From: Candidatus Limosilactobacillus merdavium
Lineage (GTDB): Bacteria; Bacillota; Bacilli; Lactobacillales; Lactobacillaceae
Assembly (NCBI GenBank): GCA_018883805.1
Contig: JAHLFK010000001.1
Coordinates: 1-33,848 of the forward strand
Direction: 5' to 3'
Length of the DNA stretch: 33,848 nucleotides
The notes below the pieces were generated by a model. The model saw only the letters and a list, made by a program, of their open reading frames with translations. It ran no database searches and had not been told where the DNA came from. This document shows, piece after piece, positions 2,830 to 33,173 of the stretch (position 1 is the stretch's first letter; the number at the start of each line of letters is the position of its first letter). A program made the translations under genes and the position numbers.

Positions 2830-3294
2830 TTACTTCTTATCACCGTTTTTCATCATTGATTCAAGCTCGTTCATAAATGCATCGACATCTTTAAATTGCC
2901 GATAAACACTAGCAAACCGAATGTAGGCAATCTCGTCAACATCTTTCAATTCCTGCATTACAAACTTACCAATCACTTGACTAGAAACCTCATTTTCGCC
3001 AAGGCTCCGTACTTCTTTTTCAATTTTATCTGCAACCTTAGTCAGTCGTTCCATACTAACAGGCCGTTTTTCTGCAGAACGGACAATCCCGTTAAGAATT
3101 TTTTGCCGGCTAAATTCCTGACGAGTACCGTCCTTCTTGATTACTAATAGCGGAGTTTCTTCATACCGTTCAAAGGTAGTAAACCGAAATCCGCAATGAA
3201 CACATTCACGACGCCGACGGATAAATGTTCCATCTTCACTTGGTCGACTGTCGACGACTCGCGAACCATTTTTATGACAATGTGGACAGCGCAT
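2830..3294 (-). CDS. nrdR: Transcriptional repressor NrdR
   Basis: NrdR represses ribonucleotide reductase genes when dATP/ATP is bound and so controls dNTP supply. The 154-aa protein has a zinc ribbon with Cys3, Cys6, Cys31 and Cys34 (CPHC and [13 protein letters not shown]), followed by an ATP-cone domain at about residues 49-139 ([16 protein letters not shown]). Length and both domains match the family exactly. In Firmicutes it is usually beside dnaB/dnaI, as here, linking DNA precursor control to initiation genes. Confidence 0.97.
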
Positions 3295-3333
3295 CTAACT
3301 TCCCCTCCTTACTTATCTCAATCTATTATTCTA

Positions 3334-3939
3334 TCACAAGTTATAATCCTGCATATTATCAATCAATTTGGCGACTTGTTGCTTTAAATGATCTTCATCG
3401 CCATTATTGTTAATTACAATATCAGCTAACCCCTTTTTCTCTTCAAGCGGCATCTGTGCATCAATTCTTTGTTCTGCTTCTTCTCTTGAGTATCCATTCC
3501 GTTGCATAAGTCGTTGAATTTCCGTTGAACGATCAACATAGACAACAATTACTTGATCACAATCAGATGCATAATTAGCCTCAAATAACAAAGGAATATC
3601 CAAAATGACATAGGGAAGTTGCTGCTTCTTATAATTGTCCACTTGGCGCCAAATTTCTTCCCTAATCAAAGGCTGCATAATTTCATTTAATTTAGTTAGT
3701 TTTTCTTGATCACCAAAAACAATCGAGCCAAGTTTTTGCCGATTTAATGTTTGATCAGGATTGAGGATTTGATTGCCAAATGCAGTTGCCAATTTTGCTA
3801 ATCCTTTTGACTGAGCAGATTGAAGTTGGTGAACAATTTGATCAGCATCAACAATTGGGTATCCAGCTAAGCGGAGCAAATTACTAACAGTTGATTTACC
3901 ACTTGCAATTCCACCAGTCAAACCAATTATCTTAGTCAT
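3334..3939 (-). CDS. coaE: Dephospho-CoA kinase
   Basis: CoaE phosphorylates the 3' hydroxyl of dephospho-CoA with ATP, the last step of coenzyme A synthesis. The 201-aa protein begins with the P-loop GGIASGKST (residues 9-17), followed by DADQIVHQL and the lid/substrate block IREEIWRQV...LDIPLLFEA, typical of the family. The start overlaps the mutM stop by eight bases, implying coupled translation. Its place between mutM and nrdR is the standard Firmicute order. Confidence 0.96.
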   Translation of the reverse strand: MTKIIGLTGGIASGKSTVSNLLRLAGYPIVDADQIVHQLQSAQSKGLAKLATAFGNQILNPDQTLNRQKLGSIVFGDQEKLTKLNEIMQPLIREEIWRQVDNYKKQQLPYVILDIPLLFEANYASDCDQVIVVYVDRSTEIQRLMQRNGYSREEAEQRIDAQMPLEEKKGLADIVINNNGDEDHLKQQVAKLIDNMQDYNL

Positions 3940-4787: not shown

Positions 4788-7448
4788 TTACTTCTTTAAA
4801 TCATACCAAGTATCGCCATACTTACTATCAACCTTCAATGGAACTGATAACTTAACAGCAGTATCCATTACTGAAGGAACTAGCTTGTTTAATACTGGAA
4901 TTTCTTCTTTTGGCGCTTCAAATACAAGTTCGTCATGGATCTGTAAAAGCATCTTAGCTTTCAAGTGACGCTTTTCTAACTCATCTTGCATCTTAATCAT
5001 TGCAATCTTAATAATATCAGCGGCACTCCCTTGAATTGGAGTGTTCATTGCAGTCCGTTCTGCAAATGAACGCCGACTAAAGTTCTTTGCATTAATATCT
5101 GGTAAGTAACGGCGACGGTTAGTAATTGTCTTAACATAACCATTCTTCCGAGCAAATTCAATTGTGTCATGAATATAGTCTTTAACTTTTGGGAACTCCT
5201 TGAAGTAATTTTGAATAAATTCATGTGCTTGACTGCGACTAACATGAATCCGCTGAGCAAGACCATAATCACTGATTCCATAAACGATTCCAAAATTAAC
5301 TGCCTTAGCACGACGCCGCATATTACGATCAATCTCTTGATCCGGTTTTAAGTGGAAAATCCGGCGAGCGGTACTTGCGTGAATATCCTCGCCATTCTTA
5401 AAGTCTTCTTGCAAGTTATGATCACCAGTAATGTGAGCTAGGACTCGCAATTCAACTTGTGAATAGTCAGAAGAGAAGATTTGCCAGCCTTCATGACTTG
5501 GAACAAATGCCCGACGAATTTGTCGACCTTCTGGCAAGCGGACAGGAATATTTTGCAGGTTTGGATCAACTGAAGAAAGTCGTCCAGTCTGGGTTAATGT
5601 TTGTAAGTAACGAGTATGGATCTTTTGGTCACTAGAATGGATGACCTTTAATAATCCTTTGATGTACGTTGATTGTAGTTTTGAAATTTGCCGGTATTGA
5701 AGGATATTCTCAACAATTGGTGCTTGCGGTGCTAACTTTTCTAGGACTTCAACGGCGGTAGAATAGCCTGTCTTAGTCTTTTTAATAACTGGTAGTTTTA
5801 ATTTTTCAAAGAGAATTTTACCCAGCTGCTTAGTAGAATTAATATTAAACTCTTCACCAGCTTCTTGATAAATTTGCTCTTCAATTTCCGTTAACCGTTC
5901 TGTTAACTTACTTCCCATATCTTTAAGGGTTTGCGCATCAACATGAACCCCGGTGATTTCCATTTTAGCTAGGACATGTGTTAGTGGCAGTTCGATATCA
6001 GTATATAGTGGCAGCTGTTCATTTTCTTTTAGCTGGTCAACTAGTTTTGTCCGGAGACTTTCTACTGCCCTAGTCTTATTAGCTAGGTGAGCAAAGAAAA
6101 TTTGATCATCTTCAGGAATCGCCCGCTTAGCCCCTTTACCGTAAACTTCTTCATCGGTTTGAATATCATAATAGTCATGTTCATGTGCTAACCGACCTAA
6201 ATCATTACTATTATCATTAGTATTCAACAGGTAAGAAGCAAGGAGGAGGTCAAAATCAATTCCAGTTAAGTTAATCCCTAAACGGTTTAGTCCAACTATC
6301 TGTGCCTTAGCATTAAAGACATCTTTCTTAATTTCTGGATCCGTCAAATACTTCTTTAATGGATCTTTCTTTAATAATTCTGGATCGCGACTTACCAGCC
6401 ATTGCTTTCCATTGCCAATTGCAAATCCCGCAAATGGAGAAACATGATAGTTAGCTTCTGGCATCTCAAGATAGAAGCTAACCCGGTTGCCTAATTTAGA
6501 AACGAGGTCTAAATTATCAGCTGTTAGCTCAGTAAATTCAATTGGTGCAATCTCATTTGCTGTATCTTGAGGAGCAACGTTCATATTTTTCAAGAAAGAA
6601 CGAAAATCCATCTTTTGATAGAAATCAATCAACTTTTCAGTCTGTGGGCCCTGGTAATCAAGATCAGCTAATTTAACCTCAATTGGTGCGTCACGAAGGA
6701 TTGTAGCTAAGGTCTTGCATTGGCGTGCGATGTCTTCTTCCTCAACCAAGTGTTCCTTCATCTTGCTCTTCTTAAGCTGATCAATATTTTCGTAAATACC
6801 TTCAACGGAGCCAAATTGTTTTACTAATTTGATAGCTGTCTTTTCACCGATCTTAGTAACCCCAGGATAATTATCAGAAGAGTCACCCATAAGAGCTTTC
6901 ATATCAATGATCTGTGTTGGGGTAATCCCTAACTTCTCCTTAACATGCTCTGGTGTGTAATGTTCAGTATCAGTAACTCCTTTATGGGTAACTGCGACTG
7001 TTGTATTTTCACTTGCTAACTGCGTTAAGTCTCGATCTCCGGTTACGATCAATGTCTTATAACCTGCTTCATCGGCTTCTTTTGCAAGGGTCCCGATAAT
7101 GTCATCGGCTTCATAGTTCTTCAGTTCATAACTGTGTAGGCCAGAATCTTTTACCAGTTCACGAACATAAGGCAGTTGTTCAGTCAATTCTTCAGGAGTT
7201 TTGTTCCGACCACCCTTATAATCGTCGTACATCTTAGTCCGAAAAGTTACTTTCCCAGCATCAAATGCAACTAGTGCCGCATCAGGCTGAAAGTTTTGTA
7301 GGACATGATCCAGCATCAATTTGAAACCATAAATTGCCGCTGTGTGAAGGCCATCCTTGTTAGTAAATTTGTCAATTTGATTGTGCATGGCAAAGAATGC
7401 CCGAAAGACAATACTATTTCCATCAATTAATAATAATTGTTTACTCAT
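4788..7448 (-). CDS. polA: DNA polymerase I
   Basis: PolA fills gaps and removes RNA primers in repair and lagging-strand synthesis. The 886-aa protein has an N-terminal 5'-3' exonuclease/flap domain (about 1-290; LLIDGNSIVFRAFFA, NYEADDIIGT, VTGDRDLTQL), a middle 3'-5' exonuclease-fold domain (about 300-480), and a C-terminal polymerase domain with motif A DYSQVELRVLAHI, motif B RRAKAVNFGIVYG and motif C QIHDELVFEAP (His838-Asp839-Glu840). The middle domain reads YLEMP where proofreading enzymes have FDTET, so the metal-binding acidic residues are lost, as in other Firmicute PolA. It is first in the repair/initiation run. Confidence 0.98.
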   Translation of the reverse strand: MSKQLLLIDGNSIVFRAFFAMHNQIDKFTNKDGLHTAAIYGFKLMLDHVLQNFQPDAALVAFDAGKVTFRTKMYDDYKGGRNKTPEELTEQLPYVRELVKDSGLHSYELKNYEADDIIGTLAKEADEAGYKTLIVTGDRDLTQLASENTTVAVTHKGVTDTEHYTPEHVKEKLGITPTQIIDMKALMGDSSDNYPGVTKIGEKTAIKLVKQFGSVEGIYENIDQLKKSKMKEHLVEEEDIARQCKTLATILRDAPIEVKLADLDYQGPQTEKLIDFYQKMDFRSFLKNMNVAPQDTANEIAPIEFTELTADNLDLVSKLGNRVSFYLEMPEANYHVSPFAGFAIGNGKQWLVSRDPELLKKDPLKKYLTDPEIKKDVFNAKAQIVGLNRLGINLTGIDFDLLLASYLLNTNDNSNDLGRLAHEHDYYDIQTDEEVYGKGAKRAIPEDDQIFFAHLANKTRAVESLRTKLVDQLKENEQLPLYTDIELPLTHVLAKMEITGVHVDAQTLKDMGSKLTERLTEIEEQIYQEAGEEFNINSTKQLGKILFEKLKLPVIKKTKTGYSTAVEVLEKLAPQAPIVENILQYRQISKLQSTYIKGLLKVIHSSDQKIHTRYLQTLTQTGRLSSVDPNLQNIPVRLPEGRQIRRAFVPSHEGWQIFSSDYSQVELRVLAHITGDHNLQEDFKNGEDIHASTARRIFHLKPDQEIDRNMRRRAKAVNFGIVYGISDYGLAQRIHVSRSQAHEFIQNYFKEFPKVKDYIHDTIEFARKNGYVKTITNRRRYLPDINAKNFSRRSFAERTAMNTPIQGSAADIIKIAMIKMQDELEKRHLKAKMLLQIHDELVFEAPKEEIPVLNKLVPSVMDTAVKLSVPLKVDSKYGDTWYDLKK

Positions 7449-22687: not shown

Positions 22688-24388
22688 TTACATTTCGTCA
22701 GGAGCCTTAACGTCAAGAAGAGCCAATGCTGACTTCAATACGTCACTAACAGCTTGAGTTAATGCTAACCGTGCTGGTTGTTGTGGATCATCGTCCAAGA
22801 TTCGTGTGTGTGCGTAGTATTGGTTGAACTTCTTAGCAAGTTCCAATGCGTACTTAGCAACTACAGATGGGTCGTAGTTAATAGCAGCACGCTTGATAGC
22901 TTCACTGTATTGACCTAAGAAGCTAATTAAGTCCCATGCACCATCGCCAACTTGAGTCAAATCAACATTGCTGAAGTCACGGATGCCGCCCTTCCGCAAA
23001 ATACTCTCTGCACGAGCGTGAGCGTATTGAACGTAAGGACCAGTTTCCCCTTCAAACTTAACAACGTCTTCAAGCTTAAAGTTAACAGCATTCCGACGGT
23101 AGTTCTTCAAGTCATGGAAAATTACGGCACCAACACCAACTTGCTTAGCAACTTCATCAGCGTTCTTCAAGTCAGGGTTCTTTTCTGCAATTTGCTTCCG
23201 GGCTAAGTCAATTGAATCATTAAGAACATCTTCAAGAGAAACAACATTACCCTTCCGTGTTGACATCTTTTGACCATTTAAGTTCATTAAACCAAATGAG
23301 ATATGTTCAATTTGATCCCACCAGTTAAAGCCCATGTTCTTCAATGCCATCCGCAATTGCTTGAAGTAAACTTCTTGTTCAGCACCAACAACATATAGTG
23401 ACTTTACAAAGCCGTACATCCGCTTCCGGAAGAGAGCCGTAGCCAAATCACGAGTAATGTAGGTAGTTGTTCCATTACTCTTGATAATCAATAGAGGTGG
23501 CAAGTTGTATTCATCCAAGTTAACGATTTCGGCTCCCCGACTCTTTTCAAGAAGGTCCTTGTCACGTAATAATTGGATTGGTTCATCCATCTTTTGAGCG
23601 GAGAATGCTTCACCGTTAAATGAATCAAACTTAACATCTAACATGTCGTAAACTCTTTGGAAACGTTCCAATGAAATTTCACGGAACCAGTGCCAAAGAC
23701 GCCATGCTTCTTCGTCACCATGTTCCAGCTTAGCAAACCATTCACGACCTGCATCAGTATATTCTGGGTGTTCATCAGCTTCGGTGTTAATCCGAACATA
23801 GAGTTGAAGCAAGGTGTTAATTGGGTCATTCTTCAGACCATCTTGAACTTCCTTACTGTCGCCCCACATTTTGTAGGCTGCCATCATCTTACCAAATTGT
23901 GTACCCCAGTCACCAAGGTAATCAATCCGGATTAAGTTGTAGTTAACCTTTTCTAAGATTCGGGCAATTGCTTCACCAATCATAGTTGAACGAAGGTGAC
24001 CCATCCCCATTGGCTTAGCAATGTTAGGGGATGAGTAATCAATTGTAACATTAGCTTGGTGACCAAGATCAATTTCACCATAGTGTTCTGGATCATCCAA
24101 GATGGCCTTCAAAACACCAGCACCAACATTAGCTTTATCAAGGAAGAAGTTAATGTATGGTCCTGCAACAACGACTTTTTCAAATCCATCTTGGCTAATT
24201 TTTTCTACTAATTCACTCGCAATCATTTGAGGAGCCTTGTGTAAGGTCTTTGCCAAGAAGAATGTTGGAAAGGCGTAGTCACCATTTTTGGAGTCCTTAG
24301 GCCGTTCAATCTTATCTTCAATTTCCTTAACATCCAAGTCGGGTAATGCAACTGCTAAAGCATTAGCTACTTGTAATTTTTCATCCAT
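22688..24388 (-). CDS. argS: Arginyl-tRNA synthetase
   Basis: ArgS charges tRNA-Arg with arginine. The 566-aa class I synthetase has an N-terminal Add1 domain (1-110), the HIGH-equivalent GMGHLRS (about 128-134), the KMSKS-equivalent KMSTRKG (about residue 378) and a C-terminal DALR anticodon-binding domain ([11 protein letters not shown] ... [11 protein letters not shown]). The frame stays open 34 codons further upstream, but that part lies inside the T-box terminator. ATG 24388 has AGGAGG eight bases upstream and a normal family N-terminus. Expression is controlled by the T-box leader. Confidence 0.97.
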
Positions 24389-28320: not shown

Positions 28321-29406
28321 TTACAATTCCGCCAATTTATCAATAATTAACGTGTCATTCTTTGCCTTGTATTCATCGATCAAATAAGAGTAAGTGTTTA
28401 ACGTTACTGTGATATTTGAATGACCTAGACGCTTACTAATGGCGTATATATCGACACCCTTACTTAGCAAATAGGCAACATGGACATGACGTAATGAGTG
28501 AAAATGGAACCCTTGTTTTTTCATCCCTATATCATTCATAATAGACCGTAGACATTTGTTTAAAGCGTTACTGGTTGGAATGGTACCAAGAACGTTCTGA
28601 AATACCATAACACTATGATTAGCCTTTAAATCTTCTAAGTGATTGAGTAATGAGCGATTTACCTTGATGGTTCGATTACTTGATTCAGTCTTAGTTGGTT
28701 TAAAGGCTTTTTCTTTTTCGTCCCACGACTTATTAATAGTGATCGTTGAATGTAAGAAGTCTATATCCTTCCAAGTAAGCGCCTGTATTTCGCCTTTTCG
28801 CATTCCTGTATATATTGCAGTTAAAATCATGAAACGGCTGGTGTTGTAATGATTCAGTTTGTCCAGTACCGCTTTTTTGAGCTTGATTAATTCATCTTTA
28901 GTTAAGTATTCGACCTTAACTTGCTTATCCTTATTGTGAATAAGCTTAACGTTACTAGTAAAATCCTTAGTAATAATATCATCATCAATCGCATAACTAA
29001 CCGCAGACCGCACCGCACCATTCAGCTTGCTAACACTATCTTTAGCATGGTCAGACCCGTACCAGTTTATAAAGGCTTGATAATCAGACCGTTTAATATC
29101 TCTTAGCTTGGTATCTTTGAAATATTTTTCAATGGCAGTTCCAATTACACGATAGCGATTTTGTGTTATGGCAGTGATACCGTTTTTTTCATACAGTTTG
29201 TACCAGCGCCAATAGTAATCAATCAATGACATATCTTTCAGATCGATATTAAGAGCGCCTAATTCCTTTTCTTTCTCGTTGGCTTTATCCAATGCTTCCC
29301 GTTTTAGTTTGAACCTACCAACTGATTTTTGGTGACGTTTACCGTTGCTATCCTTGTATTCAGCGATTCCATAGTAACCGCCTTTTGTTTTCTTAGCATA
29401 ACTCAT
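28321..29406 (-). CDS. int: Tyrosine recombinase (phage integrase)
   Basis: This integrase catalyses attP/attB recombination of the element. The 361-aa protein has an N-terminal AP2-like arm-binding domain (about 1-50, GGYYGIAEYKDSNGKRHQKSV), a SAM-like core-binding domain (about 58-155) and a catalytic domain. The catalytic set is complete: Arg203 (TGMRKGE), Lys239 (PTKTESSNR), His303-x-x-Arg306 (HSLRH), His329 (GHSNI) and nucleophile Tyr339. It resembles integrases of lactobacillar temperate phages and Tn916-like elements. It reads toward the boundary and ends next to putative att repeats; no defect is visible, so it is probably active. Confidence 0.96.
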   Translation of the reverse strand: MSYAKKTKGGYYGIAEYKDSNGKRHQKSVGRFKLKREALDKANEKEKELGALNIDLKDMSLIDYYWRWYKLYEKNGITAITQNRYRVIGTAIEKYFKDTKLRDIKRSDYQAFINWYGSDHAKDSVSKLNGAVRSAVSYAIDDDIITKDFTSNVKLIHNKDKQVKVEYLTKDELIKLKKAVLDKLNHYNTSRFMILTAIYTGMRKGEIQALTWKDIDFLHSTITINKSWDEKEKAFKPTKTESSNRTIKVNRSLLNHLEDLKANHSVMVFQNVLGTIPTSNALNKCLRSIMNDIGMKKQGFHFHSLRHVHVAYLLSKGVDIYAISKRLGHSNITVTLNTYSYLIDEYKAKNDTLIIDKLAEL

Positions 29407-29446: not shown

Positions 29447-29590
29447 AAAGTAATAAATAATCGAGTGCTGGGGATGAAATAACATCCCCTACTGGAGCTT
29501 TTAACGTCATTCACGTTTGGACTAATTAGTGCTTAAACGGATTATCGGTGCAATTTAGGAGCATTTTGCACTGAAAAGGGTCTAAATTTG

Positions 29591-29767: not shown

Positions 29768-30529
29768 TCAGAATGGCAATTCATCATCAGATAAATTACT
29801 AATCAAGGAATGCTTCATTACTATTCCACAATTCAATTTTGAATAATCAGAATCGAAATCGTCAAAACGAAAAGAGATAGGGATACTAGGCGGTAATGTT
29901 ATATATTGATTATCAGATTGAAACTTTGAAAGATAATCATAAAATGCCCTACTGATTTTTTCTTGAATTACTTTTTGAAAACCAGCAGTCAAATCATCAT
30001 TCCAAAATTTAAAGAAGCTTTCCTTCTGAGACTTCATACTATCTTTAATTGGTGGATTGCCTAAAATTACCTTTAAATTTGGAACATCCATATAAAAGCT
30101 ATAATCATCATCTTGAATTTCGGAATAATGAAAAGAAATTTTATTTTCAGAAATTATAGATAATTCAAACGTTTTTTTTATTTCACCAGTCGAATAATTG
30201 TTACTGGTCTTTGTTAAATAAAGATCTAAATAAAATGGCTCTATATAAGTATCATTAGCAGAAGCTTCCTCAATGGAATCAGGTACAACGGGTTGTTCAT
30301 CTCCACTAACCGACACAGATACATCAAAAGGTAAATATTCAAAGAACTCTTGCGGAGTTACTCCTAAATATTGACAGAGCGAATTAACAGTTTCAAACTG
30401 AATCATTTTTCCACTATTGCTAACGGTAGAATTAATAGTATTTCTAGATAAGTTATCAATATCATTAGCTATTCTAGTTGCTTTTAGACCTCTCTCGTCC
30501 ATTAATTCTTTTAATTTATTGCGGATCAT
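29768..30529 (-). CDS. Lysogeny repressor, XRE (Cro/CI-type HTH) family, no S24 peptidase
   Basis: This is a 253-aa putative master repressor. The N-terminal HTH (about 4-66: LKELMDERGLKATRIANDID, then VNSLCQYLGVTPQEFFEYL) is of the HTH_3/HTH_26 type. The remaining roughly 180 residues match no family I recognise. I see no S24/LexA autocleavage signature, so it may not respond to RecA. The ATG at 30529 has GAGGTG seven bases upstream; the longer frame (to 30607) would run through the promoter/operators. The gene is divergent from the early genes across three dyad sites and likely autoregulated. Confidence 0.82.
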   Translation of the reverse strand: MIRNKLKELMDERGLKATRIANDIDNLSRNTINSTVSNSGKMIQFETVNSLCQYLGVTPQEFFEYLPFDVSVSVSGDEQPVVPDSIEEASANDTYIEPFYLDLYLTKTSNNYSTGEIKKTFELSIISENKISFHYSEIQDDDYSFYMDVPNLKVILGNPPIKDSMKSQKESFFKFWNDDLTAGFQKVIQEKISRAFYDYLSKFQSDNQYITLPPSIPISFRFDDFDSDYSKLNCGIVMKHSLISNLSDDELPF

Positions 30530-30579
30530 CTTATACACCTCGTTTACTTGGTTTAAACATAAAACAATATTAAGTAAAA

Positions 30580-30595
30580 GACAACTATTATTGTC
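30580..30595. promoter_or_regulatory. Operator-like dyad 1
   Basis: GACAACTATTATTGTC: outer arms GACAA/TTGTC. It lies across the minus-strand TTGACA/TTGTCT elements likely to form the repressor promoter. Confidence 0.65.
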
Positions 30596-30612
30596 AAAAG
30601 TAATCAAAAAAA

Positions 30613-32021: not shown

Positions 32022-32336
32022 ATGAATAAATTAGATAAAGAAGAACAACGCTTATTGGACTTACTACCAAAAGGAATTGACCGACCACGCCCACTTAAAG
32101 AGTTGGTTAAACTCACTGGATGGAATAGTCGCAAGGTTAGAGGAACTATTAACCGCTTGATTGTGATTCATCATCAGCCAATTGGCGCTAAGTATGAACA
32201 CCCTAACAATGGCTATTTCATTATTACCAACGATAAAGAGCGCAACATCGCACTTGCTCCCCTAACCTCACAGATAACTGTAATGACCAAACGGGCGCAA
32301 GTAATCAGCAATGCACAGTTAGAAAGTGAAGAATAA
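32022..32336 (+). CDS. Winged-helix-like phage early protein
   Basis: This 104-aa protein has a predicted winged helix-turn-helix (LDLLPKGIDRPRPLKELVKLTGWNSRKVRGTINRLIVIHHQPIGA) with a beta-wing ending NNGYFIITND. It is common in early operons of lactobacillar phages and probably a small DNA-binding regulator. GAGGTG lies six bases before the ATG. The role is unknown. Confidence 0.65.
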   Translation: MNKLDKEEQRLLDLLPKGIDRPRPLKELVKLTGWNSRKVRGTINRLIVIHHQPIGAKYEHPNNGYFIITNDKERNIALAPLTSQITVMTKRAQVISNAQLESEE

Positions 32337-32347
32337 TGTTCAGACAA

Positions 32348-32436
32348 AATAAAAAAGCCGTCAAATGCTATCAATCGACCAAAAACGTTAGCATTTAACA
32401 GCACACTTTGAATGAGTACAACGGCTTCCCGTTGCT
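32348..32436 (-). ncRNA. Candidate small RNA antisense to the early operon
   Basis: Reading the minus strand, an extended -10 TGTTAGAAT (32442-32450) would start a transcript near 32435. It opens with hairpin CAACGG-GAAG-CCGTTG (32419-32434), has an inner hairpin AAATGCTA/TAGCATTT (32389-32396 with 32363-32370), and closes with AAGCCGT/ACGGCTT (32421-32427 with 32355-32361) directly followed by TTTTTTATTTTG. This gives a compact RNA of about 90 bases with its own promoter and terminator, in a gap without a gene. The structures are seen; transcription is inference. On the plus strand the same sequence would be a structured leader of the next gene. Confidence 0.5.
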
Positions 32437-32502
32437 TGCTTATTCTAACATGTAACTTTGAATTACAGGGAAATCATCCCCAACAACTGGAGGAATAAGA
32501 CA

Positions 32503-32712
32503 ATGAATAACGATAATTACAAGTTTATTTTGGCAGACGACCACAAAGGAAACAAAGCCCTTGTAGTAATCAAAGGCTCTTGGACTAATGATTTAGTCAA
32601 TTCATCAAAAGTTGTAGATGGCAGCCGTTTCAAAGACGTTGCTCAACAGCTTAAACATATCATTGATTCAGCGAGTGTTATTGAAAAGGACGGTGAACAG
32701 TCATGCAATTAG
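32503..32712 (+). CDS. Unknown small phage protein
   Basis: This 69-aa soluble protein starts MNNDNYKFILADDHKGNKAL, continues with VVIKGSWTNDLVNSS, and ends ...VIEKDGEQSCN. I do not recognise it. The ATG at 32503 has GGAGG eight bases upstream. It overlaps the next gene by ten bases, so translation is coupled. It is in the replication-side part of the early operon. Confidence 0.6.
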   Translation: MNNDNYKFILADDHKGNKALVVIKGSWTNDLVNSSKVVDGSRFKDVAQQLKHIIDSASVIEKDGEQSCN

Positions 32713-33173
32713 TGACCCTTACCGCACCAGACGGACACAAAGAACGCTGGGACTTTAAAACCACTTATCTATCCCTTTTAACTTGGTATCAATACCTTAA
32801 AGACGTAGACAACGCCAAAGAACCTAATGAGCTTGTTACTCGTATTAGTAAATTTGTTGGGGATGATATTAACCAAGTCCACACCTTATTAATTTACTTA
32901 GACGGATTTAACGATGATCTATATTCCAAACTGTCAATGCTTACAAAGAACGAAAACAAAAACACCGTTCGGCTATATTTCATCATGAAGTCAATTAATA
33001 ACCCCCACTACTTGCGACACAACAACGAACAGGAACCAGAACGACAGCAACTAATCAATCGGATTAAGCAAGTCACAAATAACGACAGCAAAACTCTTAA
33101 TCGCCTTACTGAATTAACTAAATTATTTGTTGATGGTCAATTAAGTTACAAATACTTGGAGGAATGCAACTAA
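32703..33173 (+). CDS. Unknown phage early protein
   Basis: This is a 156-aa soluble, mostly helical and polar protein (MQLVTLTAPDGHKERWDFKT, TYLSLLTWYQYLKDVDNAKE). No known motif is seen, and no cysteine apart from the penultimate residue. AAGGACGG lies before the ATG. Its stop overlaps the start of the replication gene by one base (TAATG), so it is co-translated with replication and may take part in it. Confidence 0.65.
   Translation: MQLVTLTAPDGHKERWDFKTTYLSLLTWYQYLKDVDNAKEPNELVTRISKFVGDDINQVHTLLIYLDGFNDDLYSKLSMLTKNENKNTVRLYFIMKSINNPHYLRHNNEQEPERQQLINRIKQVTNNDSKTLNRLTELTKLFVDGQLSYKYLEECN

Follow-up and report, generated by a model that had tools for sequence, protein, structure and literature searches.

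The window, which is the whole stretch of 33,848 nucleotides analyzed here, carries on its minus strand a predicted antisense (countertranscript) RNA of ∼85 nucleotides (nt) (32351 to 32435) that is probably a cis-encoded RNA of the pT181 type and would repress the replication operon lying downstream. The structure of the RNA, its strand, its conserved slot, and the likeness of its loop and tail to those of the pT181 RNA emerge from sequence comparison. Copy control by antisense RNAs of the pT181 type is known best from plasmids. Chromosomal phage-like elements apparently have an RNA of this kind as well, built in where the early genes meet the replication genes. A sister group is placed before integrase genes, and its model matches 52 of 201 Lactobacillaceae genomes. 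If the RNA works as proposed, the choice of these gut and food bacteria between integration, excision, and replication of the elements would be governed by an RNA as well as by the repressor.

An earlier, sequence-only reading of this DNA had predicted a new small RNA that carries a promoter and a terminator of its own and opposes transcription of the early operon. The predicted minus-strand RNA with these two signals and this orientation finds good support in its conservation, its base pairing, and G-U pairs that fit one strand only. The claim of novelty stands insofar as no Rfam family matches the RNA above its cutoff in the loci scanned (the window and 14 loci); the RNA belongs, however, to a kind already known, plasmid countertranscript RNA, and the claim holds only in part.

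Gene setting and parts of the predicted RNA

The window is one complete contig, and gene calls and family scans place a phage-like integrative element at its right end. A tyrosine integrase (28321 to 29406) and an HTH repressor (29768 to 30607) are encoded on the minus strand, followed on the plus strand by early genes in the order HTH protein, Bro-N antirepressor, second HTH protein, small ORF, and a protein of the PHROG 2113 family, whose function is unknown (32022 to 32336, family scan). The gap of 166 bases that contains the RNA (32337 to 32502) extends from the end of this ORF to the ATG at 32503 and is gene-free, as the earlier reading had it. Downstream on the plus strand are the presumed first target, a gene without a family match recognized as an ORF and by comparison of homologues (32503 to 32712), the next gene of the operon presumed to be the target, likewise without a match in the family scan (32703 to 33173), and a DnaD-like helicase loader with a role in replication, identified by the family scan and truncated by the contig end (33164 to 33848). 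The same module, including the DnaD-like helicase loader downstream of the RNA, is found together with an integrase and a repressor on a circular 10.4-kb record of L. reuteri annotated as a plasmid (NZ_CP104439.1, 10428 bases). Among the 10 scanned of its 14 annotated proteins, none matches a structural family, and this "plasmid" probably represents an element of this type after excision. One viral contig shows the module beside tail-like genes, which are named from the translated sequence only. The element is labeled phage-like here and may be a small prophage or a satellite. An ordinary ribosomal protein L20 leader (RF00558, 73 bits) is located far from it, at positions 291 to 421 of the minus strand.

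The proposed promoter of the RNA is the extended −10 element TGTTAGAAT, present on the minus strand at 32450 to 32442 as described before. In all 13 distinct homologues, the −10 is ATGNTAGAATA, followed by AGC or GAC. No −35 box is recognized by eye near this element, and a two-hexamer promoter scan does not list the site. The spacing to the −10 suggests a start of the RNA at 32435. The RNA would begin with a 5′ hairpin (32418 to 32435), for which the 6-bp GAAG hairpin of the earlier reading, CAACGG-GAAG-CCGTTG, is retrieved and extended by a closing G-U to the 7 pairs of GCAACGG-GAAG-CCGUUGU, according to fold and pair counts. The second structure (32357 to 32402) is a predicted terminator and recognition hairpin comprising a 14-bp stem, an inner loop in the predicted fold of the window-class RNA, and an apical loop with UUUUUGGUC. 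Where the earlier reading saw an 8-bp hairpin nested inside a further stem, there is one unbroken helix, in which GCUGUUAAAUGCUA (32402 to 32389) pairs with UAGCAUUUGACGGC (32370 to 32357). It is followed by the T-run of a putative intrinsic terminator, six Ts at 32351 to 32356, contained in the run ACGGCTTTTTT that ends at 32351.

The minus-strand RNA (88 nt) folds with −29.6 kcal/mol, compared to −17.6 ± 3.0 kcal/mol for shuffled sequences (0 of 200 as low), and the plus strand with −18.8 kcal/mol, compared to −11.3 ± 2.7 kcal/mol (1 of 200 as low). The 5′ hairpin and the 14-bp hairpin are present together in both the minimum-energy and the centroid fold, contrary to the suggestion of a switching RNA whose two stems exclude each other through the shared bases ACGG/CCGT. 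An inverted repeat, GGGGATGATTTCCC (32468 to 32481), lies between the promoter of the RNA and the downstream ribosome-binding site and has some form of counterpart in 12 of the 13 homologues. Its interpretation as an activator site at fixed spacing was set aside because the distance to the −10 ranges from 17 to 23 bases among homologues.

Conservation of fold, strand, and slot

DNA, protein, and pattern searches yielded ten distinct copies; the covariance model R1, trained on these ten and giving scores for them that are not independent, added three more at ∼65 bits (L116 to L118). One of the 13 distinct copies is that of the window; eight are from further genomes that belong to the genus or bear the name Limosilactobacillus, one is from the L. 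reuteri plasmid, and three are from viral contigs with no host named. The structure is kept in all 13. On the minus strand, 176 of the 177 cells of the 14-bp stem are paired, 21 of them through G-U, and reading the same cells on the plus strand leaves 21 non-pairs. The fold of the minus strand is better than that of the plus strand in every copy. The G-U pairs, as a feature of the aligned sequences, show the minus strand to be the strand of the folded RNA. Arms of the stem pair at 99% when cognate and at 94% when swapped between copies, the latter value being high because the copies are similar.

Covariation in homologues, the check proposed with the earlier reading, gives values above those of shuffles for three of five measures. 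In alignment A4, 95.4% of the cells are paired, 22 cells are double changed, and the covariation score is 0.355, compared to 0.225 ± 0.017 after shuffling, with 0 of 500 shuffles as high in each case. The other two measures show no excess, with 7 pairs carrying a double change versus 5.2 in shuffled alignments (52/500) and 20 pair types versus 19.2 (223/500). A4 leaves out the four weak matches among the 14 of A3. Since A4 is fitted to the model and its member sequences are related, the strand-specific G-U pattern is a stronger argument than these counts. Stems were counted with arms set by hand because A4 misaligns part of the 5′ hairpin (L116 to L118).

R1 matches 11 of 50 Limosilactobacillus genomes at an E value of 0.01. 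Two of these 11 hold diverged copies at ∼40 bits (L119 and L120), which by eye occupy a similar slot in other elements and are followed by replication-like genes. A draw from the family gives matches in 14 of 301 genomes at an E value of 0.01, four of them from Limosilactobacillus, and a draw from the order gives a single one in 198 genomes at an E value of 0.001, the window's own. Two weak R1 matches from outside the genus (L121 and L122) were set aside as members suggested only by their score: stem and tail are present and the loop is absent. L121 adjoins an ORF that by eye resembles enolase. Phage records contain no DNA similar to the window locus, and plasmid records contain one entry with similar DNA.

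The position of the RNA before the downstream module is constant across the 13 copies. The first downstream gene belongs to one family in six of them (the window, L005, L011, L116, L117, and L118) and to an unrelated family in the other seven, with no cross-match between the families at 1e-3. The conserved link is therefore that of the RNA to the operon leader and not to one protein; as judged from this gene content, the RNA seems to be tied to the operon and not to any single gene. Among 30 PHROG 2113 loci, for one of which (L028) the orientation was not called, 12 show an antisense hairpin with a T-run downstream of the PHROG 2113 gene, and five show an antisense hairpin with the promoter pattern, four of these being of the window class. 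Two distant PHROG 2113 loci (L035 and L043) carry CUUUGGUCGG in the 5′-hairpin loop of an antisense candidate. Inspection by eye of two further loci reveals unrelated sequence in the same slot (L013, near 5300 to 5450, and L008, near 3270 to 3420), where the minus strand has a similar architecture of −10-like element, hairpin, long stem, and T-run.

Proposed action on the sense-strand leader

We infer transcription, target, direction of the effect, and termination step of the RNA as follows. An extended −10 promoter dedicated to the RNA would start it on the minus strand, and a terminator of its own would end it after ∼85 nt. Its sequence would be complementary to the untranslated leader that separates early regulatory from replication genes, and the UUUGGUC-type loop of its large hairpin would kiss the matching loop of the sense transcript in the manner of pT181. 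Pairing would lower expression of the downstream replication genes. The likeliest step is that premature termination would be favored at the sense hairpin at 32419 to 32444, with a block of translation or cleavage by RNase III as alternative steps. As an outcome, the replication module would be kept low, or its dose would be limited after induction.

The sense hairpin, CAACGG-CUUC-CCGUUG followed by CUUGCUUAUU, is listed on the plus strand by a consensus terminator scan and is also identified in an extended form. It is a candidate attenuator that is weak in the window copy, where the best sense terminator reaches −2.6 and stays under the test threshold of −5 kcal/mol or better. In its U-rich tail, this hairpin overlaps with the −10 complement. 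Terminator-like sense hairpins at the antisense 5′ region occur in 10 of 13 window-class leaders, compared to 7% of shuffles, with none found in two and the window itself weak. They occur likewise in 15 of 28 leaders of the integrase genes treated below, compared to 10% of shuffles; these 28 are the 30 loci fetched with model R2 minus L173, a short fragment, and L178. In both comparisons, the shuffle control ignores that the antisense RNA already forms a hairpin there. In one integrase leader (L141), a clear terminator and an upstream strand that competes with it can be made out by eye. Alternatively, the outer sense stem may function as a DNA operator.

The ACGG/CCGT complementarity is found on the sense strand as well, where a pT181-like antiterminator is conceivable. 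The pairing AAGCCGU:ACGGCUU is stronger than that with shuffled 5′ segments (−4.3 kcal/mol), but its cognate mean of −7.6 kcal/mol compares to −7.9 kcal/mol for swapped partners (11 distinct of 13 copies). Swapped partners thus pair equally well, and a cognate-specific antiterminator of the pT181 kind is unsupported. Because this test went against the full pT181 scheme, the proposal is confined to antisense repression by kissing, with termination as the likeliest step.

Other explanations start from the same arrangement. The RNA resembles OOP of lambda, which is likewise an antisense RNA placed where early regulatory genes give way to replication genes (PMC5869508), and shares its topology of a minus-strand RNA that terminates at the end of the upstream gene. 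In analogy, the RNA would act mainly on the upstream gene, pairing with the early-gene transcript at its 3′ end or tail to provoke RNase III cleavage, or would separate early from replication transcripts. By coordinates, the end of the RNA does overlap the last bases of an extra upstream ORF in one copy (L007/L060). OOP, however, overlaps cII by 52 bases (PMC5869508), whereas the window RNA ends at 32351, 14 bases short of the stop codon ending at 32336, and has no overlap with the upstream gene. In L007, moreover, another ORF separates the RNA from the PHROG 2113 gene at a distance of ∼400 bases, yet the RNA adjoins the downstream module, and action mainly on the upstream gene is considered unlikely. 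The loop could also target other mRNAs in trans, such as the leader of another element, a helper phage, or a host gene, making the overlap with the operon incidental. A loop core common to RNAs of other elements on different stems fits such a role, as does a related candidate elsewhere in the same genome; in the loci examined, however, the RNA is opposite the operon or an integrase leader. Possible GACCAAA target sites in the window were set aside, as they show no enrichment (TTTGGTC 9 versus 6.2 expected, with 18 of 100 shuffles having as many). A trans-acting small RNA is accordingly rated as quite improbable.

It is very improbable that the conserved feature is a DNA element, in which the palindromes (GAATAAGCA..TGCTTATTC and GGGGATG..CCCC) serve as operators or origin structure and the RNA is a by-product or primer. 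Such an element would explain why GGGGATG occurs 16 times in the window versus 1.8 expected and why, in most homologues, the outer palindrome can pair on either strand, with no consistent advantage for one of them. It would not explain why pairing of the 14-bp stem is kept through G-U on one strand only, with a T-run following on that same strand, and it sits poorly with the variable distance of the inverted repeat from the −10. Repression of the replication operon by a cis-encoded antisense RNA thus stays the preferred reading.

Known antisense RNAs and relatives at integrase leaders

The ctRNA_pT181 family (RF00242) controls rep leaders. The RNA described here is alike in being an antisense RNA of similar length (the family model has 94 positions) with a large 3′ hairpin, a UUUGGUC loop, and a U-rich tail and in opposing the leader of a presumed operon, whose third gene in the window is the DnaD-like helicase loader. 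The loop is UUUGGUC in 8 of the 13 copies (in the form CUUUGGUC in five) and a UGUGGUA variant in the other five; the UUUGGUC core is common to RF00242 and the integrase-leader RNAs. The systems differ in that ctRNA_pT181 belongs to rolling-circle staphylococcal plasmids and the RNA here to an integrated phage-like element that encodes a DnaD-like helicase loader, and the attenuator and antiterminator of pT181 have no clear counterpart in the window leader. RNAIII of pIP501 and the sar RNA of P22 are further antisense RNAs, limiting replication or an antirepressor gene. According to PMC3753616, pT181 control relies on kissing hairpins, and chimeric attenuators needed an inner loop close to the top of the hairpin.

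The window RNA does not match RF00242 at the gathering cutoff (56 bits), nor up to an E value of 10, and none of 14 genomes passes the cutoff. At the homologous place, two genomes reach 28.5 bits (G021; E value of 0.068) and 25.4 bits (G011; E value of 0.41), and weak matches to RF00242 also occur in 5 of 14 control genomes. A related RNA from outside the genus (L125) aligns over its whole length to the family model with 41.6 bits. Because the family cutoff was tested and not reached, the RNA is not filed as a member of ctRNA_pT181. Weak matches in the window to sraA, rox2, SNORA63, and serC are far under their cutoffs and were disregarded. Among the papers listed by the literature searches, none concerned these RNAs.

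Some of the weak R1 matches outside the genus (L123, L124, and L125) are RNAs in which different stems carry the loop of the window class. A search of 397 Lactobacillaceae genomes for the loop pattern AACTTTGGTCGGTGNGG gave 10 places in 9 genomes, compared to 1 match of the reversed control pattern, and all 10 places show a hairpin with a T-rich tail opposite a phage integrase leader (PF00589 in 10 of 10). These 10 RNAs and L124 make up model R2, with compensatory changes in 6 of 13 pairs. At an E value of 0.001, the genomes matched by R2 in the Lactobacillaceae draw represent 22 of 40 genera, and a class-wide draw of 240 genomes gives one match, by eye before an integrase-like ORF. Of 30 R2 loci fetched from the 201-genome draw, 28 face an integrase, eight of these being genes of the loop-pattern set; L173 faces an ORF of 70 amino acids without a match, and L178 precedes a PHROG 2113 gene within an early operon. 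L141 to L150 and L151 to L180 stand for the candidate antisense RNAs that face tyrosine integrase leaders and have a loop of the CUUUGGUCGGUG type. The integrase-leader RNAs may correspond to the Lacto-int motif (Weinberg 2010, PMC2864571), judged from name and range only; a table in that source gives Lactobacillales and phages as its range, rates it ambiguous as an RNA, and lists it without an Rfam number. No match named Lacto-int appears in the Rfam scans, which covered the window and 14 loci.

Applied to the window class, R2 finds the RNA in 7 of the 13 copies at an E value of <0.05; the window's own copy, L004, and L116 to L118 are unmatched, and L005 is found only at an E value of 5. It gives no match at the place of the RNA in seven further related slots (L119, L120, L018, L035, L043, L008, and L013). 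A tentative extension is that one family of kissing antisense RNAs, defined by its loop, controls integrase and replication leaders across integrative elements of the Lactobacillaceae, possibly with cross-element action. RNAs of one element may act on another because the loop is nearly invariant while the stems differ; if true, this would amount to RNA-level immunity or cross-regulation between coresident elements.

The window's own genome holds a second candidate of the integrase-leader type (L181, on contig C68; R2 score of 35.7 bits and E value of 0.012), followed by a small ORF and an integrase. The GGGGATG sites of the window are located at 29470, 29483, 29646, 30903, 31541, 31748, 32475, and 32859, with eight more before 28000. 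They form facing pairs twice, at 24002 to 24033 and, in the leader of the integrase, at 29470 to 29489.
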